From Aquabacterium sp. (GTDB lineage Bacteria; Pseudomonadota; Gammaproteobacteria; Burkholderiales; Burkholderiaceae_C), in contig JAURXM010000025.1 of assembly GCA_030654395.1 (NCBI GenBank), positions 248,001 to 312,000 on the forward strand: a stretch of DNA of 64,000 nucleotides. Direction: 5' to 3'. The translations under genes and the position numbers were made by a program. The notes beneath the pieces were generated by a model that had not been told where the DNA came from, ran no database searches, and saw only the letters and a list, made by a program, of their open reading frames with translations. This document shows positions 51,658-64,000 of this stretch, one piece after another (within the stretch, counting starts at the first letter, position 1; every line of letters starts with the position of its first letter).

Positions 51658-53046
51658 TCAAGGCTCAGCCGCGTTGCCGCCCAAAGCTTGGTACAAAACC
51701 ACCAGCGCATTGAGCCTGCTCAGGCGGTTCTGGGCCAAGCTGTTTTCAACTTGGCGCCGCGCCTCCTGCGCATCCAGCCAAATCTTCAAAGTCACCGAGC
51801 CCGCTCGATAGCGGGCTTCGCTCAATCGCTCAGCCGTCTGCGCGGCTGACAAGGCCTGCGCCAAGCGCACGCCCTGCGCTTCGTATTGCATGCGCGCAGA
51901 CAAGGCGATTTCGACCTCGCTGAGGGCCTGATACCAGCTCTGACGAAAGCCCAATACCGCCACCTCGTCATCGGCTTGGGCGATCGCCACGCTGCGTTGC
52001 ATGTCACGCCATTGCACAAAAGGCAGCACCAAGCCCGCACCCAATGTGCCGACCGGGTCACTCAGCACATGAGACAAAGCGGTGCTGCTGCCACCTATGC
52101 TGCTGGTGAGGGTCAAGGCGGGGTAATAGCTGCTGCGCGAGGCGTCCACCGTGGCTGCACTTTGGCGCAAGCGCAACTCAGCGGCACGCAGATCTGGCCG
52201 ACGGGTCAACAAAGAAGCAGGCAAACCTGCAGGCACGTCAGGTAAAACACCATCTGGCAAGCGCAAAGCTTCATTGACCGCCAAGCTAGGGGGCGCATCA
52301 AACAAGATCGCCAAGGCGCTGCGGGCCTGTACCCGCTGGTGCAGCCACTGCGTGTGGTTGGCCTCTTGGCTGGCCAGCGATTGCGTTGCCTGCGCCACTT
52401 CCAAGCCTGACAAACCGCCCGCACGGTATTGCGCCTCAACCAGCTTGAGGGTTTGACGTGCAAAATCAATGCTCTGCGCGCTGGCCTCCACGCGCTGATT
52501 AAGGTACGCCACCTGCCAATATAGATTGGCCACCGTGCCAGACAGAGACAAGGCCGCGGCTTGCTGATCAGCTTGGCTGGCCTGCGCCCCCAAATCGGCG
52601 GCGTTGTGCAAGGCAGCTAAACGCCCCCACAGGTCAAGCTCCCACGTCACAGCACCACTGACCGCGCTTTGCCGTGTGGTGCCATCACCATCAAGCTGGC
52701 GTGACGCACTGCTGCTGCCCGTGACGCGCACAGAGGGCAGCTGCTCGCTGGCGGCCTGCCCCGCCACCAGCTGCGCGCGCCGCACCCTGACGGCCGCCTG
52801 CGCCAAGTTGTTGTTGCGAGCCAAGGCGTCAGCAATCAATTGCTGGAGCACCTTGTCATCCAAAACCAACCACCACGGCGGTGACGACGACAAAGCGGCC
52901 TCGCCCTGCGCTGCACCCTGCTGCCATTGTGCAGGCACCTGTACATCAGGCCGCTGATAGCCGGTCGGCGAAGCACAGCCAACCAATGCGGCCACGCCCA
53001 GCAATACAGCCGTTTTACTGAAAGTCCAATGGGTCAAGCTGATCAC
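51658..53046 (-). CDS. Outer-membrane efflux lipoprotein (NodT/OprM type)
   Basis: Predicted trimeric outer-membrane channel of a MacAB-type exporter. The signal sequence ends AVLLGVAALVGC, a lipobox, so the protein is acylated. It is followed by the two TolC-type repeats: LARNNNLAQAAVRVRRAQ with DLGAQASQADQQAAALSLSGTVANLYWQV, and RPDLRAAELRLRQSAATVDASRSSYYPALTLT. GTG 53046 is proposed because it gives a compact lipoprotein leader with GAGAAAG upstream; an ATG at 53091, overlapping macB, would add an acidic extension. It is the third gene of the leftward macA-macB-OMP unit. Confidence 0.88.
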   Translation of the reverse strand: MISLTHWTFSKTAVLLGVAALVGCASPTGYQRPDVQVPAQWQQGAAQGEAALSSSPPWWLVLDDKVLQQLIADALARNNNLAQAAVRVRRAQLVAGQAASEQLPSVRVTGSSSASRQLDGDGTTRQSAVSGAVTWELDLWGRLAALHNAADLGAQASQADQQAAALSLSGTVANLYWQVAYLNQRVEASAQSIDFARQTLKLVEAQYRAGGLSGLEVAQATQSLASQEANHTQWLHQRVQARSALAILFDAPPSLAVNEALRLPDGVLPDVPAGLPASLLTRRPDLRAAELRLRQSAATVDASRSSYYPALTLTSSIGGSSTALSHVLSDPVGTLGAGLVLPFVQWRDMQRSVAIAQADDEVAVLGFRQSWYQALSEVEIALSARMQYEAQGVRLAQALSAAQTAERLSEARYRAGSVTLKIWLDAQEARRQVENSLAQNRLSRLNALVVLYQALGGNAAEP

Positions 53047-53071
53047 GCTGCGTTCTTTCTCAACTGCTGCT

Positions 53072-55051
53072 TCATTGTCTGGACAAGGCATCAACCGGAT
53101 CAAGCCGAGCGGCACTGCGCGCTGGCAAAAACCCAAACACCACGCCGATCAGGGACGACACACCAAACGCGGCCACGATGGATGACATCGAATAAATCAT
53201 GCTAAAGCTGCCACCGATTTTGTCAAAAATGACCCCTACCCCTAATGCCAGGCCGATGCCCAACACGCCACCGATCAAGCAAACCAGAACGGCCTCGATC
53301 AAGAACTGTCTGAGGATGTCGCCCTGACGCGCCCCGACCGCCATGCGTACACCGATCTCCTGCGTGCGCTCGGTCACCGATACCAGCATGATGTTCATCA
53401 CGCCGATGCCGCCCACGATCAGCGAAATCACCGCAATCGATGAGATCAACAAGGTCATCGTCTGCGTGGTGCTTTCAATCGTCTGGCGGATGCTGTCACT
53501 GTTGCGCACAAAGAAATCCTGCACACCATGGCGCTGGGTCAACAGCTTGACGATGCCCTGCTCCGCCGCTGCGGAAGACACGTCGTCGCTGATGCGCACG
53601 GTGATGCTGCGCAAAAACGGCTGTCCCAATATTCTGCGCATCACCGTGGTGTAGGGCACCCACACATTGAGCGTCTCTGAGAAGCTGAAGCTGCTCTCTT
53701 GCGGTGCGGTCACGCCCACGACGCGCACAGGTACGCGACCCAAAAAAATCACCTGACCGATCGGGTTTTCGTCGGGCAGGAACAAGGCCTTGCGGGTGGC
53801 CGGGTCAATCACCGCCTCTTGACTCTGGCGGCGCACGCTCTCGGCATCAAAGACGATGCCCTGATCCAGCTTGTAACCCTTGACCCTGAAAAACTGCTCA
53901 CCGACGCCATTGATGTTGGCCGTCACCTCGGTGTTACCGCGCCGCAAAGTCACACTGGTGCTCACACCCGGCGAGACCGTGTCCACGTAGTTCAGTTGCG
54001 CCAGCGTGTCGGCATCACGGGGCACGAGCGAGCGGATGCGCCCGGCCTGCCTGTCGCCAAAACTCTTACCCGGGAAGATGTCGATGGTGTTGGTGCCCAT
54101 CGCCGAGATGTCTTTGAGGACGCGCTGGCGTGAGCCCTCGCCCAAGGCCACCATGGACACCACAGAGGCAATGCCGATGATGATGCCCAGCATGGTCAAC
54201 AGGGTGCGCAAACGGTGCCCTGCCATCGCCCGCAACGCCATGGTGAAGGCCTCGGTGAAGCGATCCCAGGCGGCGCGCCAAGGGTGTGGTTCGGGTGTGG
54301 CATCCTCGTGTTTGATGGCGCGTTGATCACTGCCACCCTCGCGGCGCTTGTCTGACACGATCAAGCCATCAGCCACCTCGATGATGCGCTGCGCATGCTG
54401 CGCCACCTTGGGGTCGTGCGTCACGATGATCACGGTGTGGCCTTCGGCATGCAGCTCTTTGAGGATGCGCATGACCTCCTCGCCGCTGACGCTGTCCAAG
54501 GCCCCCGTGGGCTCGTCGGCCAGAATCACATCGCCGCCATTCATCAAAGCCCGCGCAATGCTGACGCGCTGCTGCTGCCCACCCGAGAGCTGCCCAGGCC
54601 GGTGCCCCATGCGGTCACCCAAACCCAAACGACCCAAAATGGCCGCCGCCCTGATCCGCCTATCGTGCTGACCATAACCGGCGTAGATCGCTGGGATCTC
54701 GACATTGCCCATTGCTGTCAAATCACCCAGCAAGTGGTAGCGCTGGAAAATAAAACCGAAGTGCTCGCGGCGCAGACGGGCCAGCTCATCGGGCGCGAGT
54801 TGCGCTGTAGCTTGACCAGCCACCTGATAAACGCCACGCGTGGGCCTATCCAAGCAACCCAAAATATTCATCAAGGTGGATTTACCCGAGCCTGATGCCC
54901 CTATGACGGCCACCATCTCACCGGCGTGGATGGCCAAGCTGATGCCTTTGAGCACCGCCACCGTCCCTTCGCCCGATGGGAACTCGCGCCAAAGATCGCG
55001 TACCTCTAACAATGCTGGCGTGGGCGCCAAGGATGACTGCACGGTGCTCAT
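53072..55051 (-). CDS. macB: MacB-type ABC transporter (fused ATPase-permease)
   Basis: Predicted inner-membrane exporter of macrolides, peptides or other periplasmic substrates. The ATPase part has Walker [10 protein letters not shown], signature [15 protein letters not shown] and Walker [13 protein letters not shown]. The MacB permease part has one membrane segment after the ATPase ([21 protein letters not shown]), a large periplasmic domain, and three C-terminal segments ([25 protein letters not shown]). Start 55051 replaces a longer frame that runs into macA. The 659 residues match MacB. Confidence 0.94.
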
Positions 55052-55055
55052 GACC

Positions 55056-56273
55056 TTAGAACATCCCCGGCGGGCGACGGCTACCACCACCAGCACCACC
55101 GGCGCCACCAGCGGTAGCCTCACCCAGCACCACGAGTTCGCCCTCTTTCAACCCATCCAGAACCTGAGCTTGGACACGGTTGTTGAGGCCGATTTTCACC
55201 TGCTTGGTCACCACCTTTTGGTCGGGCTTGCTGCCCTCTAACACCCGCACCTCATAGGTCTGGGTTTTGCGATCACGCTGACCCAAAGCGGCGGATGGGA
55301 TCATCAGCGCCCGCTCAACCTTATTGAGCACAACAAACACCTGTGTGGTCATCGCCACGCGCAGTTTGCCTTCGGGGTTGGGTACATCAAACAGGCCGTT
55401 GTAGTAGATCGCTGCCGTGGTGGATGTGGTGGTGCGCGCATCCGTTTGACTGGACTCAGGCACAGGCTCAATCGCCCTCAGGCGCGCTTCAAAGCGGTGT
55501 GATGGCTCGCCCAAAATGGTGAAATAGACCGGCAAACCGGGTTTGACCCGGACCACATCAGCCTCAGATATCTGCGCCTTAATCAGCACCTGATCCAACT
55601 TGGCCAGCTTGATGATGGACGGCGCTGACTGGATCGCGTTGACCGTGCGGCCCTCTTCAGCCAGCACGGCAATCACCACGCCGTCTATCGGTGCGACGAT
55701 CCGCGTGTAACCCAGGTTCACGCGGGCTGTATCGGCCGATGTGGTGGCCTGGCGAATTTGGGCATCAACCGCCCCGATATCAGCGGTGATGGTGGCCTGA
55801 CTGGCCTCAGCGTCTTCCAAATCGGCACGCGAGGCGGCATCCTGCGCAAGCAAAGCCTGTTTGCGTTTGAGCGTCAAATCAGCCTGCTTGAGCAAGGCCA
55901 GCTTGGCACGCCGCTGCGCATTGAGCAAAGCCACTTGCGCCTCTGCGTTGTGCAAGGTATTGGTCTGCGTGGTGGAGTCGATCTCAGCCACCAATTGGCC
56001 TTTGCTGACCTTCTGACCCAGCTCGACATACAAACGCTTGATTTGCCCGGAGACCTGCGCACCGACACTGACTTCTTTTTGAGCCTGAATGGCACCGCTG
56101 GCCAGCACGGTGTCCTCAATGTCATCAACGGTGACCTTGGCTGTGATCACCTGAGGCGCGGGTGGTGTCGCAAAGTAAACATACTTGATCGCCACCCCAA
56201 CACCAGCCAACGCCACCAAAACGGCCATCAAACGCCAACCGGACAACCATCTTTTTTGCTTAATTGTGTTCAT
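55056..56273 (-). CDS. macA: MacA-type periplasmic adaptor (HlyD family)
   Basis: Predicted membrane-fusion protein connecting MacB to the outer-membrane channel. One N-terminal membrane anchor ([20 protein letters not shown]) is followed by the lipoyl/barrel-sandwich half-motif [32 protein letters not shown], a coiled coil ([19 protein letters not shown]...) and the second half-motif [26 protein letters not shown]. The C-terminal tail is Gly-rich (GGAGGAGG). The start at 56273 fits the anchor. macB begins 4 bases after its stop. Confidence 0.93.
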
Positions 56274-56341
56274 CTCACCAGTGTCGTAGGCTGCGGCGTA
56301 CAAAAAACGTTGCGCAGGTTAAGGGAATGTAAAGTCGCATC

Positions 56342-57116: not shown

Positions 57117-58058
57117 TCATGCCGTGGCTGATCGGCTGGCCAACGCCGCTGCGGCCGTTCGGGTTTCAACACCGAGCTTTTCAAATATGTGCTCAAGGTG
57201 TTTGTTAACCGTACGGTGGCTCATGCCCAAGATCTCTGCAATATCACGGTTGGTTTTCCCCTTGGCCAACCATGAAAGCACCTCAGTTTCACGCGGCGTC
57301 AGTGCAGCAACGTCCAATCGTGTCGGTGTGGGTGTGGGCGTGGGCCTGTGCGTCACCTCGTTCCCTGCACTGAGCAACACCATGGTTTCACCCAATCCCG
57401 CTGGCCCCAGACTCTTGGCCATCAAGGCCCAGCCATCGGGCCTCAATGGCAGATCCCCTCTTCGTGGCGTGCAAAGCTCGTGCCCTATGGGGCTCTGTGC
57501 CAGTTGATGGAGCCAATCCAAAGGCGCATCGCCATGGAGATCCGGAAAGCACGCTCGCAACCACCGTTCTGCTTGAGGCGAGCGCCAAGCGATGCGCTGG
57601 CGTGCATCCAGCAGCAACACACCGTGACCACCCACATCCACGGCTTCACGCGCCAACCGCGCAACCCGTGCATTGCGAACATGGGTTGCCAAACGCGCCA
57701 ACACTTCTTCAACCCTCACGGGCTTGACCACGTAGTCCACACCACCGGATTCAAATCCCGTCACAATGTCCGCCGTCTCGGACAAGCCCGTCATGAACAC
57801 CACCGGCACATGAGACCAACTTGCGTGAGCTTTGATGCGTTGGCAGGTTTCAAAGCCTGACAGACCAGGCATCACAGCATCAAGCAAGATGGCATCGGGC
57901 ACAACCAACTCTAGGCGCTCCAGCGCTTGCTGCCCACTGCGTGCCACCAACACGGTATAGCGTTCCGCCGCTAGGGCATCGCACAGCATGCGAAGGGTGT
58001 CAGGTGCATCATCCACCACCAAGATAGTGCCCCGATGCGGATCATGATTCGGGCTCAT
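57117..58058 (-). CDS. Response regulator: receiver, PAS-like middle domain, LuxR output
   Basis: Predicted transcription regulator paired with the permease-kinase upstream, whose 3' end it overlaps by 17 bases. The receiver (about 8-125) shows ILVVDDAPDT, LLDAVMPGLSG with the phospho-acceptor at about D58, and a K at YVVKPV. A PAS-like region follows (about 135-235, GVLLLDARQRIAWRSPQAERWLR). A hinge of repeated PT (THRPTPTPTPTR) leads to a LuxR helix-turn-helix (LTPRETEVLSWLAKGKTNRDIAEILGMSHRTVNKHL). Likely target: the divergent urt operon (inference from location). Confidence 0.9.
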   Translation of the reverse strand: MSPNHDPHRGTILVVDDAPDTLRMLCDALAAERYTVLVARSGQQALERLELVVPDAILLDAVMPGLSGFETCQRIKAHASWSHVPVVFMTGLSETADIVTGFESGGVDYVVKPVRVEEVLARLATHVRNARVARLAREAVDVGGHGVLLLDARQRIAWRSPQAERWLRACFPDLHGDAPLDWLHQLAQSPIGHELCTPRRGDLPLRPDGWALMAKSLGPAGLGETMVLLSAGNEVTHRPTPTPTPTRLDVAALTPRETEVLSWLAKGKTNRDIAEILGMSHRTVNKHLEHIFEKLGVETRTAAAALASRSATA

Positions 58059-61000
58059 CTGCCATCTCCTTGTTCAGTGCAGGCGCAAGGTACTCGACCA
58101 TGCGATCAAAATCAAAGGCCTCGGCCAGGGCCAACAAAACCACCCAATCGGCTTGACAATCAGGGCGCAGTAAGGCCCATCGGCCCAATGTCTCACTGAT
58201 GCCTTGCACATGTCCTAATCGAGCCAAGCGGATCAGTTCAGCAGCGCAATCGGCTGGCAGCAAAGCCTTGGGCAAGGATTCGTGAGGCAAGGCAACGTTG
58301 GCTGGGATACAGGGTGCATTGGGCTGCTCTGTCAACCACACCAGACTCAAGTGTCGGCCCAACATATCGAGCAGTTCGGACTCGATCACCGGCTTGGCCA
58401 CAAAGCCTTGACATTGAGCTGCATCGATGTTGTCAGGCCGATTTTCAAAGACATTGGCCGAAACCATGATGATGGGCACCTGACTCAAGCCCATGCGCCT
58501 GATCGCCAACGAGGTCTCCCAGCCATCCATGTCGTCCATGCTGACATCCAACAACACAGCATCAGGACAGGCATCGCGGACGCTCTCCAAGCACTCGCTC
58601 CCGCTGGCCGCCTCACGAATCAAGAAGCCCAATGGCATCAACATGCCTGCCAACATTTGACGCTGGATGGGTTGATCGTCGACCACCAGCAGGGTCTTGG
58701 GCAGGCCAGCGTAGCCCACCACAGGGCGGTAGCTGATGCCCACAACAGGGTCACCAAACGGCACCACGGGTGCGGTGATCTCCCGCAGGTAGAGTCGTGT
58801 GGTGAAGGTACTGCCCTCTCCCTCGACGCTCTTGACACTCAAATGCCCCCCCATCAACTCCGTGAGCAGGTGGGTGATTGTCAAGCCTAGACCTGTGCCC
58901 GGCTCACTGATGCGGCGCCCACCGCTGCCGCGCTCGAAGGGCAGAAAGATGCGCTCCAGATCCTGCGGGGCAATGCCAATACCCGTGTCGACCACTTCAA
59001 AACGCAACACTTGGCGACGTGCATCAATGACCAGTATCACCACGCCTTTTTCAGTAAAGCGAACCGCATTGCTCAACAAGTTCAAGAGAATTTGCCTCAA
59101 CCTTTTGGCGTCGGCATGCACCCATTGAGGCACGCGGCCACGTGTCTCCAAACGAAAGCTCAATCCTTTGAAGTGAGCTTGGGGTTCAACCATGCGCACC
59201 ACGTCGTCCAAGAACTCGTGCAAGGGGATCGGGCTAAGGTCAAGACGCAAACGCCCCGCTTCGATGCGCGCCAAATCCAACAAACCATCGATCAGACCAA
59301 TGAGGTGCTCGCCACTGCGATGAATCGTGGTGAGGGCGCCGCGCTTGGTGCCGCTTAGGGGCTCGTCTTTGAGCAATATCTGGGCATAGCCCATGATGCT
59401 GTTAAGTGGTGTGCGCAACTCGTGCGTCATGCCGGCCACATAGCGCGTCTTGGCCTGATTGGCCGCCTCGGCCAGCTCCTTGGCTTGCTGCAACGCCACA
59501 TCGGTGCGGCGATGCGCGTCAATCTCTCGTTGCAACAACTGGTTTTGGTGGTTGGAGTCATCCTGCGCCATTCGCCTGCTCTCGGATGCCAGCACCACCC
59601 ACCAAGAACACACGGCAGCAGCCAAGAGCAGCAGGGCATAGACCTTCACGAACGGCCCATCAAGCAGGCCGTGTGGTGCGCTGTCATGCTCACCCAGCAT
59701 GGGGTCAACCACGCCCTCTTGGTAGTAAACAACGCCCAACACAAAGGCCAGCATCACCGCCAATGACAAAAATATCACCAAGTAGTGCCCTACCCTGAAG
59801 TTGATGCGGCTGGACCACCTCAGCGGCAACACGGCCGTCAGCGTGTCAGAGACTTGCTCAGCCGCGCGCGAGCGGGTCTTGCAACGGTCATGACAGCGTG
59901 ACTCCAGCGTGCAACACAGGGAACAAATGGGCGCGTCATAGGCCGGGCATGTGGCCATGTCTTCGGATTCAAAATGGTTGTCACACACGGTGCACTGCAC
60001 CACTTGTCCGGGCGACCAAACCGCTTTGGGTTGGCGAGCTAGGTAATAGCGCCCCTGTGTGGCCCATGCCATCAAGGGCGACACCACTACCGCAATACCC
60101 AGCGCAATAAAGGGCGACCATGCAGCAGCCATGGGCCCCATGAAACCTGCATGTGCCACGATCGCCATAACGGCCGCCAGCAAGGTCGCGACCAAGCCCA
60201 CAGGGTTGAGATCGAACAAGTATGCCCGCTTGAACTCAATGCCCTTTGGCGACCAACCCAGCGGCTTGTTGATGACCAGATCAGCCACCAATGCACCCAC
60301 CCAAGCAATGGCCACATTGCTGTAGAGCCCCAGCACATGCTCCAGCGCACCGAACACGCCCAGCGTCATCAGCAGCACGGCAATCAGCACATTAAAAACC
60401 AGCCAGACCACCCGCCCCGGATGGCTGTGCGTCAAGCGCGCAAAGAAGTTGGACCACGCCAGCGAGCCTGCATAGGCATTGGTCACGTTGATCTTGACTT
60501 GGGAGACGACGACAAACAACACGGTCGCGCCCAGGGCCCACTGCGGCGATGAGAACACCTCGCTGAACCCCGCCAAGTACATCTGCGTGGGCTCAACCGC
60601 TTTGTCGACAGGCACTTCGTGCTGCAATGCCAAAAAGGCGAGGAAGGCGCCCGCCAACATTTTGAGCATCCCGGGGACGATCCAACCTGGGCCGGCCACC
60701 AATACGGCACCCCACCAACGCCAGCGATTTTCTGCTGTTTTTTCAGGCATGAAGCGCAAAAAATCCACCTGCTCGCCTACCTGCACAATCAACGAAAACG
60801 CCACCGTAGCCGCCATACCAAAAGCCATTGGATCGAACTCAGACTGCCCCGAGCTGCGCCCCGTCAAAGAAGTGAAAGCCACATAGGCGTGCGGATCTTT
60901 GATGGCCACGGCAATGAAAGGGCAGACCCACAGCGCCAACCACAAAGGCTGCGTCCACAGCTGTAATCGTGAAATCAGGGTGATGCCGTGTGTGACCAAG

Positions 61001-61488
61001 GGAATGATGGCCAGAGAAGCCACAACATAACAAACGGGTAGCGGCCAGCCCAGCAGCATCTGCAAGGCCAAACCCATGATGGCAGCCTCCAGTGCAAAGA
61101 AAATGAAAGTGAAGCTGGCATAAATCAGCGAGGTCACCGTGGAGCCTAAGTAGCCAAAACCCGCACCGCGCGTGAGCAGGTCCATGTCCACCCCGTATTT
61201 GGCGGCGTAGTAGCTGATAGGCAGGCCCGTCATGAAGGTGATCAATCCCACCACCAAGATCGCCCACATCGCATTGGCAAAACCGTAGTTCAGCGCAATG
61301 GCACCACCAATGGCCTCCAGAGCCAAAAAAGACACCGCACCGAACGCCGTGTTGGCCACGCGGAACTCGCTCCACTTGCGGAAGGTACGCGGTGTGTAGC
61401 GAAGCGCGTAGTCCTCCATGGTCTCGTTGGCGACCCAGGAGTTGTACTCACGTCTGATGCGAAAAATCTTCTGCCGGGCAACGGACAC
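58042..61488 (-). CDS. NCS1-type permease fused to hybrid histidine kinase with receiver
   Basis: A transporter-sensor fusion of 1148 residues. Residues 30-490 form an NCS1-like permease (FANAMWAILVVGLITFMTG, KYGVDMDLLTRGAGFG, and about 11-12 hydrophobic segments). Residues 499-536 hold eight cysteines (C499, C502, C514, C522, C525, C526, C532, C536), probably a zinc- or metal-binding fold. Two membrane segments follow (about 565-640), then a HisKA domain with H689 in GMTHELRTPLNS, an ATPase (NLLSNAVRFTEKG, DTGIG, GTGLGLTI), and a receiver with D981 in LLDVSM. The start is set at GTG 61488, with GGAG well placed upstream; 61524 is an alternative. Divergent from urtA, so urea or a related compound may be sensed. 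Confidence 0.88.
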   Translation of the reverse strand: MSVARQKIFRIRREYNSWVANETMEDYALRYTPRTFRKWSEFRVANTAFGAVSFLALEAIGGAIALNYGFANAMWAILVVGLITFMTGLPISYYAAKYGVDMDLLTRGAGFGYLGSTVTSLIYASFTFIFFALEAAIMGLALQMLLGWPLPVCYVVASLAIIPLVTHGITLISRLQLWTQPLWLALWVCPFIAVAIKDPHAYVAFTSLTGRSSGQSEFDPMAFGMAATVAFSLIVQVGEQVDFLRFMPEKTAENRWRWWGAVLVAGPGWIVPGMLKMLAGAFLAFLALQHEVPVDKAVEPTQMYLAGFSEVFSSPQWALGATVLFVVVSQVKINVTNAYAGSLAWSNFFARLTHSHPGRVVWLVFNVLIAVLLMTLGVFGALEHVLGLYSNVAIAWVGALVADLVINKPLGWSPKGIEFKRAYLFDLNPVGLVATLLAAVMAIVAHAGFMGPMAAAWSPFIALGIAVVVSPLMAWATQGRYYLARQPKAVWSPGQVVQCTVCDNHFESEDMATCPAYDAPICSLCCTLESRCHDRCKTRSRAAEQVSDTLTAVLPLRWSSRINFRVGHYLVIFLSLAVMLAFVLGVVYYQEGVVDPMLGEHDSAPHGLLDGPFVKVYALLLLAAAVCSWWVVLASESRRMAQDDSNHQNQLLQREIDAHRRTDVALQQAKELAEAANQAKTRYVAGMTHELRTPLNSIMGYAQILLKDEPLSGTKRGALTTIHRSGEHLIGLIDGLLDLARIEAGRLRLDLSPIPLHEFLDDVVRMVEPQAHFKGLSFRLETRGRVPQWVHADAKRLRQILLNLLSNAVRFTEKGVVILVIDARRQVLRFEVVDTGIGIAPQDLERIFLPFERGSGGRRISEPGTGLGLTITHLLTELMGGHLSVKSVEGEGSTFTTRLYLREITAPVVPFGDPVVGISYRPVVGYAGLPKTLLVVDDQPIQRQMLAGMLMPLGFLIREAASGSECLESVRDACPDAVLLDVSMDDMDGWETSLAIRRMGLSQVPIIMVSANVFENRPDNIDAAQCQGFVAKPVIESELLDMLGRHLSLVWLTEQPNAPCIPANVALPHESLPKALLPADCAAELIRLARLGHVQGISETLGRWALLRPDCQADWVVLLALAEAFDFDRMVEYLAPALNKEMADEPES

Positions 61489-61690
61489 GAAACGAGCTCC
61501 GCAAGTGACAACACCAACAAGCACGCAAGAAGCGATCCATTCATTTAAGGGGGCCTGCGCACGAAGCCTCTACGTTGAATGACGTATTCAAGGAAAACCC
61601 TGAGCTCCTTAAGGTAGCGACAAGCCTGCAAAACAAACCGCACCACTTTGCAGCGTTGGTTTATCCCTTTTTTGTGCAAGGAGCCCTTTC

Positions 61691-62962
61691 ATGTCGCATG
61701 AGCAAAATGATCCTACCCACATTCCAACCGAAATGGCCCTCAAACGCCGTCGCATGTTGCAAGGCTTGGGCGCCCTGCCCCTGATCGGCCTACCCAGTTT
61801 GGGGAACGCGGCTGCACCAGCTACCGCGGTCGTCAACACCACCAAGCTGGCGGTGACCGACACCGAAGTGACTGTGGGTCAATTGCACTCGGCCACCGGC
61901 ACGATGGCCATCTCCGAAACCGGCTCGATCCAAGCAGAGCAACTGGCCATCGACCAAATCAATGCCATGGGCGGCATCCTCGGCCGCAAGATCAAAGTCA
62001 TCAAGGAAGACGGCGCCTCGGACTGGCCGACGTTTGCGGAAAAAGCCAAAAAGCTACTGGTCAACGACAAGGTCGCCACCGTGTTTGGTTGCTGGACTTC
62101 AGCATCGCGCAAGGCCGTTTTGCCCGTGTTTGAGAAAGAAAACGGCCTGCTCTACTACCCCACCTTCTACGAAGGCTTGGAGCAATCCAAGAACGTGATC
62201 TACACCGGCCAAGAGGCCACGCAACAGATCATCTGGAGCCTCGATTGGGGCAAGAAAGAGAAAAAGGCCAAAACCTTCTTCTTGGTCGGTTCAGACTACA
62301 TCTGGCCACGAACCTCGATGAAGATTGCGCGCAAACACATAGAGAACTTTCAAAAGGGCTCCGTGGTAGGCGAGGAGTACTACCCGCTGGGCAACACGAA
62401 CTTCAACTCCCTGATCAACAAGATCAAGGTGGCCAAGCCCGATTGCATCTTCGCCGCCGTGGTCGGTGGCTCCAACGTGGCCTTCTACAAGCAACTCAAA
62501 GCCGCAGGCATCACGGGCGCCAAGCAGTTCCTGCTGACCCTGGCCGTGACCGAGGATGAAATGCTGGGCGTGGGTGGTGAAAACTTCGCGGGCTTTTACT
62601 CGTCCATGAAGTACTTCCAATCACTGACCAACGACAACAATAAGAAGTTTGTCGCGGCGTTCAAAGCGGCCTATGGTCCCAAATCTGTGATCGGCGATGT
62701 GACCCAGGCAGGCTACCTCGGCCCATGGCTTTGGAAGGCTGCGGTCGAGAAGGCTGGCAGCTTCGATGTCGACAAAGTGGTGGCCGCATCACCGGGTATC
62801 GAACTGAAGACAGCACCCGAAGGGTACGTCAAAGTGCACGCCAACCACCACTTGTGGAGCAAGGCACGCATCGGACAGGGACAAGCCGATGGCACCTTCA
62901 AACTGGTCGCTGAGTCAACCGATCTGATCGAGCCCAACCCCTTCCCCAAGGGCTATCAATAG
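61691..62962 (+). CDS. urtA: Urea ABC transporter substrate-binding protein UrtA
   Basis: Predicted periplasmic receptor for urea (or short amides) of the FmdD/UrtA group. A Tat-like signal (KRRRMLQGLGALPLIG) precedes the mature part, with VTVGQLHSATGTMAISETGS, WPTFAEKAKKLLVNDKVATVFGCWTSASRKAVLP and GLLYYPTFYEGLEQSKNVIYTG, all characteristic of urea-specific receptors. The 423 residues match. AAGGAG precedes the ATG. The urt genes run to the end of the window; the sensor genes diverge 202 bases away. Confidence 0.94.
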   Translation: MSHEQNDPTHIPTEMALKRRRMLQGLGALPLIGLPSLGNAAAPATAVVNTTKLAVTDTEVTVGQLHSATGTMAISETGSIQAEQLAIDQINAMGGILGRKIKVIKEDGASDWPTFAEKAKKLLVNDKVATVFGCWTSASRKAVLPVFEKENGLLYYPTFYEGLEQSKNVIYTGQEATQQIIWSLDWGKKEKKAKTFFLVGSDYIWPRTSMKIARKHIENFQKGSVVGEEYYPLGNTNFNSLINKIKVAKPDCIFAAVVGGSNVAFYKQLKAAGITGAKQFLLTLAVTEDEMLGVGGENFAGFYSSMKYFQSLTNDNNKKFVAAFKAAYGPKSVIGDVTQAGYLGPWLWKAAVEKAGSFDVDKVVAASPGIELKTAPEGYVKVHANHHLWSKARIGQGQADGTFKLVAESTDLIEPNPFPKGYQ

Positions 62963-63004
62963 CCCCCGGCTTGATTGGCCCGTGTACCGCAAGCAGGAGC
63001 AACG

Positions 63005-63919
63005 ATGACGATTTCTGAAATGATGAACATTGGCCTGATGCAAGGCTTTGCTGGCCTAAGCCTGTTTTCTGTGCTCTTGCTCATGGGCCTAGGCTTAGCC
63101 GTGATTTTTGGACAAATGGGTGTGATCAACATGGCCCATGGCGAGTTCATGACCATTGGTGCCTACACGACCTTTCTAGGCTCGACGATGGCCGAGAAAT
63201 ACGCGCCCAACCTCATTGCCTACTACTTCCCCGTGGCGATCTTGCTGGCCTTTTGCTTGGCGTTCATCGTGGGCTGGATCACGGAGTGGGCACTCATTCG
63301 TCACCTCTACAAGCGGCCCCTAGACACCTTGCTCGCCACGTGGGGACTGAGCCTGGGCATGCAACAGTTTTTCCGAACCGCGATTGGCCCCAAGGAGGTC
63401 AGCCCCACTCTGCCCGATTGGCTGATGGGCTCTTGGTCACCACATGAAGGTCTGGACATCCCCATTAACGGCATGTTCGTGATGGGGCTAACCACCATCG
63501 TCACAGCCTTGTTGCTCTTGGCCTTGTACCGCGCTCGATGGGGTCTGCGTGTGCGGGCCACCGTGAGCAACCGCGTGATGGCCAACGCCATCGGCATCAA
63601 TACCCAAAAAACAGACCGTCTGACCTTCGCCATTGGCTGCGGCATCGCAGGCATTGCTGGCGCAGCCTTTACCACCATCGGCTCGACTGGCCCTACCAGC
63701 GGCTCGCTCTACATCGTAGATTCATTCTTGGTGGTGACCTTCGGTGGTGCAGCCAGCCTACTCGGCACCGTAGCTTCGGCCTTTGGCATCGCTCAGACGC
63801 AGTCGATTGCCGAGTTTTTCCTGTCGGGCTCGAACGCGAAGGTGCTCACATTGATGCTCGTCATCACCATTTTGATGATCCGTCCTCAAGGCCTGTTCGC
63901 CGCCAAAGTGCGCCGCTGA
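63005..63919 (+). CDS. urtB: Urea ABC transporter permease UrtB
   Basis: Predicted permease of the branched-chain-amide ABC transporter. MNIGLMQGFAGLSLFSVLLLMGLGLAVIFGQMGVINMAHGEF (quoted in part) opens the protein, LLATWGLSLGMQQFFRTAIGP and the C-terminal GSTGPTSGSLYIVDSFLVVTFGGAASL are typical of UrtB. Eight hydrophobic segments. The start at 63005 is chosen for GCAGGAG just upstream. It lies 42 bases after urtA. Confidence 0.95.
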   Translation: MTISEMMNIGLMQGFAGLSLFSVLLLMGLGLAVIFGQMGVINMAHGEFMTIGAYTTFLGSTMAEKYAPNLIAYYFPVAILLAFCLAFIVGWITEWALIRHLYKRPLDTLLATWGLSLGMQQFFRTAIGPKEVSPTLPDWLMGSWSPHEGLDIPINGMFVMGLTTIVTALLLLALYRARWGLRVRATVSNRVMANAIGINTQKTDRLTFAIGCGIAGIAGAAFTTIGSTGPTSGSLYIVDSFLVVTFGGAASLLGTVASAFGIAQTQSIAEFFLSGSNAKVLTLMLVITILMIRPQGLFAAKVRR

Positions 63920-63958: not shown

Positions 63959-64000
63959 ATGCATCAAATCACAGACTGGATCACGCAGCGCAAGCTAGGC
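63959..64000 (+). CDS. urtC: Urea ABC transporter permease UrtC (start only)
   Basis: Only the first 14 codons (MHQITDWITQRKLG) lie in the window, after AAGGA nine bases upstream. Position after urtB and the usual urtABCDE order make urtC the expectation; the sequence here is too short to confirm it. Confidence 0.7.
   Translation, partial: MHQITDWITQRKLG

Follow-up and report, generated by a model that had tools for sequence, protein, structure and literature searches.

Few fusions between a transporter and a histidine kinase have been characterised; in the portions of the literature searched, these are CbrA, CrbS, RpuS, and Ks-Amt5. In CbrA and CrbS, the SLC5-STAC histidine kinases, a LeuT-fold transporter domain of the SLC5 type lies N-terminal to the kinase. 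CbrA also contains STAC and PAS, these proteins serve histidine or acetate use, and K196 of CbrA points into the Na2 site, according to the available part of a preprint. Ks-Amt5 is an uptake protein that has been repurposed as a sensor by a fused kinase; it has the Amt fold, is a trimer, and is described as comprising Amt, DHp, and CA only, with no cysteine module mentioned in the sections available (PMC5764959). CodB, an NCS1 transporter, binds cytosine through Trp108, Phe204, Gln105, the TM6 break, and Asn280, and sodium through Thr278/Thr279 among others (sections of PMC9379551). E. coli CodB has these residues at identical numbers. As for small amides, excerpts of three reports bear on operons of the kind considered here. 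The second "urea" cluster of Bradyrhizobium japonicum, which lies beside formamidase/amidase genes, was inferred to handle possibly acetamide/formamide, not urea (PMC3098086), and formamide uptake has been suggested for such a cluster in Pseudomonas veronii (PMC13209695). LuxR-family two-component genes adjoin a second urtABCDE operon, and a hybrid kinase appears in a figure legend of that report, whose available passages leave a permease unmentioned (PMC13296017). No dedicated sensor kinase for formamide use was found in the literature passages searched. Likewise, we found no description of a permease-cysteine-kinase-receiver architecture in the literature searched, which included few subscription journals, so that it may be noted elsewhere; nor did this literature yield binding, transport, or expression data on such a family.

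The gene considered here lies in a 64,000-nucleotide stretch of Aquabacterium sp. DNA (the window), where it stands between a regulator gene and a divergent urt operon:

57117..58058, minus strand: LuxR/NarL-type response regulator, 313 aa (Response_reg and GerE), overlapping the stop of the fusion gene by 17 bp
58042..61488, minus strand: permease-cysteine-histidine kinase-receiver fusion gene, GTG start at 61488, 1148 aa
58360..58689, minus strand: receiver domain (Pfam PF00072, Response_reg, E 9e-19), phospho-Asp codon 58546-58548
58786..59112, minus strand: HATPase_c catalytic domain (Pfam PF02518, E 1.6e-26)
59254..59454, minus strand: HisKA (Pfam PF00512, E 7e-19), phospho-His codon 59422-59424
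59572..59799, minus strand: two further helices, TM13 and TM14, from the secondary structure of the model, the second extending towards the kinase
59881..59994, minus strand: eight-cysteine cluster (residues 499, 502, 514, 522, 525, 526, 532, and 536)
60055..61422, minus strand: NCS1-like permease domain, helices fitting 12 TM with TM1 and TM6 broken
61571..61586, plus strand: candidate operator TACGTTGAATGACGTA between fusion and urtA, with two mismatches to the family palindrome TACGTCANNTGACGTA
61691..62962, plus strand: urtA-like binding protein of the formamidase-linked type (TIGR03407, 518 bits, cut-off 492.75)
62975..63919, plus strand: urtB (TIGR03409, above cut-off)

As the original prediction held, Pfam, sequence alignment, and a structural model together place the permease, the eight cysteines, two further membrane segments, a histidine kinase, and a receiver in one chain. 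The ORF extends over 58042-61524 (minus strand) with alternative starts available in the ORF list, and the GTG at 61488 coincides with the ORF beginning of a relative (L070). Conservation was read from a 177-row alignment in which the window is included, close relatives are over-represented, at least two genomes (L069/L071 and L050/L136) appear twice, and ORFs of 850 aa or less are left out; from a further alignment (A2), two of 61 selected sequences (L114 and L047) were left out. The kinase His and the N-box Asn are each found in 177/177 rows; for the receiver Asp and Lys the count is 175, the other two rows having gaps. Thus, with HisKA, HATPase, and receiver all carrying their catalytic residues, the protein is a hybrid histidine kinase. 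Behind the receiver, positions 58042-58360 encode a conserved tail of ~85 aa (consensus G-Y-v-R-G-i..k-L-D-e-i....P) that has no Pfam name. No HPt domain was recognised in the protein, and an HPt in the C-terminal 85 residues was rejected: the candidate His is Tyr in 105/177 rows and His in 50/177. A chance ORF or a misassembly is likewise rejected, because a sample of 397 genomes spread evenly over the phylum contains fusions in 57. Relatives mostly have the full length; in one genome (L055, at G012:C1:897301, and L008) the ORF ends at 687 aa, behind the permease-cysteine part, and a Hylemonella MAG (L082) carries two same-strand fusion genes in one 18-kb locus. At two other loci (L237 and L238), the fusion lacks its receiver; a distinct protein combining a receiver with a kinase-type HATPase comes next, and fmdA lies alongside. 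L237 additionally encodes an OmpR-type regulator. A Paracoccus locus (L303) resembles this layout, with AmiS/UreI in place of the urt genes.

The fusion is divergent from urtABC and adjoins a LuxR-type regulator, as had been noted from the window itself: the regulator overlaps it, and beyond urtA and urtB, urtC starts at 63959 and continues past the window end. The genome region that follows (L241) contains urtC, urtD, an unlabelled ORF at the urtE position, fmdA, and fmdB, with FmdA at G000:C56:314547-315758. A second urt locus ~39 kb away (L242; G000:C56, about 345-355 kb) has canonical urtA-D together with ureA, ureC, and ureG; it contains no fusion, and its UrtA is 43% identical to a formamidase-linked UrtA. 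The original assignment to a urea module therefore needs amending. The linkage to urea/amide genes is very strong, but the module of the window copy is urtABCDE-fmdA-fmdB and thus includes a formamidase; a strict urea module is rejected for this copy, whose operon carries fmdA/fmdB and whose UrtA is of the formamidase-linked type. Beyond the regulator, at 51658-56303, lies an ORF set that, judged by eye, resembles a MacAB-TolC-type efflux operon.

Relatives are widespread. Among the own genome and genomes of the same genus and order, 34 of 61 match, many at two or three places, and a scan of one genome per species gave at least 564 confirmed relatives, of which the best 80 comprise 59 from Betaproteobacteria, 11 from Alphaproteobacteria, 8 from Gammaproteobacteria, and 2 unassigned. 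In the 397-genome phylum sample, 60 genomes match and 57 contain a fusion, three weak partial matches having been dropped; there are 62 fusion places, and regions of up to 20 kb were taken for 59 of them (the window and two others aside), plus one weak match. Genes for urt, fmd, or ure are present in 56/59 of these loci, so the proposed check, whether homologues adjoin urt or urease genes, bears out the linkage. Two of the loci without amide genes (L209 and L239) are at contig ends or on short contigs, and the third (L222) is a true exception as far as labels reach. The best-match set (75/80) and the regions from relatives (39/40) give a similar picture, with six loci lacking such genes. FmdA (NF045496) occurs in 41 of the 397 genomes, 40 of which have a fusion and one of which does not, while 17/57 fusion genomes have no FmdA (Fisher p 4e-40, ignoring relatedness), and 39/44 FmdA genes (over cut-off, two weaker rows dropped) lie at most 15 kb from a fusion. 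Since UrtA (TIGR03407 over cut-off) is found in 151/397 genomes, most genomes with a urt operon lack the fusion sensor. As a separate observation, 532 plasmid records match the permease part, 342 of them from Klebsiella; in one of these (L300), an intact fusion and urtABCDE-formamidase are divergently oriented on an IncFIB plasmid classed as non-mobilizable.

The fusions fall into two subtypes. UrtA typing took the window UrtA as its F-type reference. A neighbouring UrtA could be typed in 86 of 97 fmd-linked rows, always with the window type as result; the 22 UrtA proteins typed among 40 ure-linked rows are all canonical; and urt-only rows are mixed (12 window-type, 12 canonical, 4 untyped). 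When the contexts are mapped on a FastTree tree with 109 rows, 9 changes suffice for the ure label, compared with 23.4 in shuffles; L082, with its two fusions, adds some label noise. The contexts therefore cluster, but have switched more than once. In four of the five phylum-sample genomes with two fusions, one copy adjoins fmd and the other ure, while in the fifth (G151) both are beside fmd. Each of twelve same-genus genomes listed has one fmd-linked and one ure-linked copy; in G021 the fmd-type copy is linked only to urt of the same UrtA type, and G025 carries one further copy, near which no such genes lie.

The permease domain is predicted by the model to have the NCS1/LeuT fold, its nearest solved structures being NCS1 transporters. 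The fold and a profile-profile comparison thus uphold the original label "NCS1-type", but Pfam does not: PF02133 has no match in the own genome and none to E 1 in 24 aligned members, and the window protein matches no Pfam transporter family up to E 10. When PDB sequences were searched using the permease or its profile as query, nothing matched up to E 10 either. Residues were mapped onto CodB by hhalign, a sequence alignment that is uncertain by one position in TM6 (numbers refer to the 1148-aa protein). Gln105 of CodB corresponds to Thr127, Asn280 to Asn334, and the Na2 sodium-site residues Thr278/Thr279 to Lys332/Ile333, which are present in 177/177 and 175/177 rows, respectively. The Trp108 position (Phe130) is Phe in 161/177 rows and Leu in 16/177, and Phe204 becomes Leu or Ile/Val, depending on the alignment shift, so that the TM6 aromatic is lost. 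By this alignment, the protein has neither the Na2 threonines nor the aromatic sandwich of CodB, and it differs from CodB and Mhp1 in these positions as well as in its fused kinase. Eleven residues are invariant in all 177 rows (T127, E134, Q236, E239, Q240, D242, R245, Q330, K332, N337, and Y339). Conservation of the substrate site, which the original prediction had made a test, therefore has two sides: several CodB substrate and sodium residues are replaced, yet the replacements are themselves invariant. The loss of the aromatic and the additional polar side chains would fit a ligand that is small and polar. Residues specific to a subtype were sought and rejected. Many columns differ between fmd-type and ure-type rows, but few of these differences recur in a second group of seven rows, mostly linked to urease, one common change being Glu to Asp at model position 300; consequently, no specificity residue is claimed.

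The same permease subfamily also exists without a kinase. Although no kinase-free permease was seen in the 397-genome sample (at most three candidates scored per genome, and a weak partial match in a 489-aa frame of G239 set aside), the notion that the permease is restricted to fusions is false in general, since stand-alone relatives occur on plasmids. A tblastn search with an Arthrobacter plasmid homologue as query gave matches in 530 plasmid records, of which 18 reach at least 60% identity; 11 of these 18 loci were examined, and one without annotation leaves 10. Seven of the 10 adjoin urease, formamidase, or aliphatic amidase genes. On four Acinetobacter plasmids, which are close copies from one lineage, the permease directly precedes the urease genes; this permease, labelled allantoin permease or hypothetical protein at the head of the urease operon (L304, L309, L312, L313), may be an unrecognised urea permease. 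In Moraxella the permease is divergent from fmdA-fmdB, in Tsukamurella a zinc-ribbon gene and fmdA are the second and third genes downstream, and in Arthrobacter U41 it precedes an aliphatic amidase gene with acs nearby. The remaining 3/10, from Streptomyces angustmyceticus and two other Arthrobacter loci, show no amide genes among their neighbours. The permease of Arthrobacter StoSoilB13 (L301; 45% identity) is divergent from bioB-bioA-bioF, with no amide gene in ten ORFs scanned. The stand-alone neighbours thus point to small amides as the permease ligand independently of the kinase. Seven stand-alone rows, from Acinetobacter, Moraxella, Tsukamurella, Arthrobacter, and Streptomyces plasmids, have the same pocket residues as the fusions, Lys/Ile included, so the change at the CodB sodium site belongs to the subfamily and not to the sensor. 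These rows differ from the fusions in lacking a kinase, in having one to five of the eight cysteines, and in TM1, where they contain Asp-Phe instead of Leu-Glu. In trees of the seven stand-alone and 59 fused rows, the fused rows lie on one side of a branch, with support of 100 without NCS1 rows and 88 with them.

The eight cysteines at residues 499-536 are, as supposed, conserved: six are present in 177/177 rows and two in 176, with one gap each. The idea that the cluster is foreign to the permease fails, because a four-cysteine version forms the tail of stand-alone relatives. Three such rows (two identical Acinetobacter and one Moraxella) keep equivalents of C499, C502, C522, and C525 only and are without C514, C526, C532, and C536, the last two positions lying beyond the tail end. 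The Streptomyces row has five cysteines, and three Arthrobacter/Tsukamurella rows have one each. The simplest reading of these sequences is that there are probably two metal sites of four cysteines each, the second having arrived together with the kinase. An occurrence of the cysteine domain outside the fusions is rejected for the 397 genomes: the 62 strong matches (E up to 6.6e-23) are found in long frames at fusion places, and the next best match has an E of only 0.0017. Prok-RING_1 is weakly matched in 5/59 rows (best E 0.09), and a treble-clef model by one row (E 0.0004). A Foldseek search with the isolated domain, whose model is weak (pLDDT 76), found no significant PDB fold (best E 0.2, with RING/PHD/FYVE among the weak matches). 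PDB sequence matches, mainly C2H2 fingers on the first CxxC, were rejected.

On the output side, of 138 same-strand pairs of fusion and response regulator genes less than 2 kb apart, 116 are separated by -60 to +100 bp. Among 115 non-redundant fusions, the 330 bp that precede approximately codon 4 contain TACG-N8-CGTA in 61 cases, versus 0.6 on average in five shuffled sets, the regions and genomes compared being related, not independent. By context (window excluded), the palindrome occurs in 48/63 fmd, 6/21 urt-only, 3/22 ure, 2/2 mixed, and 1/6 other upstream regions without such genes, versus 26/2238 control windows from the same loci; it is absent from 15/63 of the fmd type. A Klebsiella pneumoniae plasmid copy likewise carries the dyad in the interval separating urtA from the fusion. 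The own genome shows no enrichment of the palindrome (66 matches versus 151 for the reversed pattern, at most three mismatches), and about one match is expected in the window by chance; the case for the candidate operator therefore comes from the comparison among loci. No clear distinct operator emerged for ure-type loci from a k-mer analysis, whose signal is taken to be mostly coding sequence, and a sigma-70 promoter scan of 61400-61760 gave no match.

Taken together, these results suggest that the fusion acts as a transceptor for small amides, sensing formamide, urea, or both, and perhaps acetamide, and that it activates the adjacent genes, a reading to which we assign a probability of about 0.68. 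The NCS1-like permease would then be the probable receptor of an amide-responsive two-component system. A ligand would occupy the central site of the permease, and the resulting change would travel through the cytoplasmic cysteine module, which probably holds zinc, and the TM13/TM14 pair, long helices at model residues 565-595 and 608-673, to the kinase dimer. Phosphate would pass to the overlapping LuxR-type regulator, directly or via the receiver, and the regulator would bind the palindrome in the divergent promoter and raise transcription of the adjacent uptake and hydrolysis genes, urtABCDE-fmdAB at the window locus and urease in the second subtype. Comparison with CbrA and Ks-Amt5 supports a transceptor kinase of this kind. 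Like CbrA and CrbS, the fusion has a LeuT-fold transporter domain N-terminal to its kinase, and its lysine aligns with a CodB Na2 residue, where K196 of CbrA points into the Na2 site. Unlike them, it has an NCS1-like domain in place of SLC5, which puts it outside the SLC5-STAC family; the cysteine module and two extra TM helices at the place of STAC and PAS; and amide genes as neighbours. STAC itself gave no Pfam match and was not among the best 25 of 142 NCBIfam matches, libraries that may lack a STAC model.

Other readings assign the input differently. The permease might still transport the amide, with the kinase reading flux or internal substrate, as proposed for CbrA, rather than occupancy. 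We regard this as the less probable course, though one to be taken seriously: the stand-alone relatives, whose pocket residues are identical, resemble uptake proteins encoded next to urease or formamidase genes, and the SLC5 domain of CbrA transports histidine, according to the part of a preprint available, but many fusions already have genes for a dedicated ABC transporter next to them, and Ks-Amt5 has lost transport (PMC5764959, in part). The replacement of the CodB sodium-site threonines by Lys-Ile also speaks against transport; it is not decisive, because the stand-alone relatives share it. Docking of the adjacent UrtA-like binding protein on the permease, in place of direct ligand binding, would fit the urtA-like gene, divergent and no more than 1 kb away in 89 of the 136 loci where both genes were identified, and the single UrtA type at fmd-linked loci. 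We consider it unlikely, since the Paracoccus sensor stands beside fmdA and the AmiS/UreI transporter gene with no urt among 12 annotated features, and 4/59 phylum-sample loci have ure and 2/59 have fmd without urt.

It is similarly doubtful that the cysteine module is the true input, responding to zinc, redox, or nitric oxide, and the permease mainly an anchor. The eight conserved cysteines do adjoin the membrane, but the pocket residues are just as invariant, and stand-alone permeases with only four or one of the eight cysteines retain the link to amide genes. The nucleobase or hydantoin ligand suggested originally from NCS1 substrates is very improbable. Apart from the NCS1 fold and the database label "allantoin permease" on several stand-alone relatives, little speaks for it: no such genes were seen among the neighbour families annotated, a partial survey, and the CodB TM6 aromatic and Gln105 are not kept.

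If amide sensing by the permease is correct, the fusions may form a widespread new class of transceptor kinase for the smallest amides, formamide and urea. Somewhat more tentatively, at slightly less than even odds, the class would have a single origin in a stand-alone NCS1-like urea/amide permease with one four-cysteine metal site in its tail, to which another four-cysteine site, a pair of TM helices, and a kinase were added; coupling would fall to the double zinc module, as proposed for STAC in CbrA, and the class would later have split into formamidase- and urease-controlling forms with different operators. Since kinase-free relatives still exist in the same metabolic context, the way in which a transporter became a receptor is directly testable. 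The family adds another transporter fold, a predicted ligand class, and a predicted operator to the few transporter-kinase fusions characterised. It would also supply a regulator for formamide use, and would give a reason for the second "urea" transporter operon beside formamidase genes.
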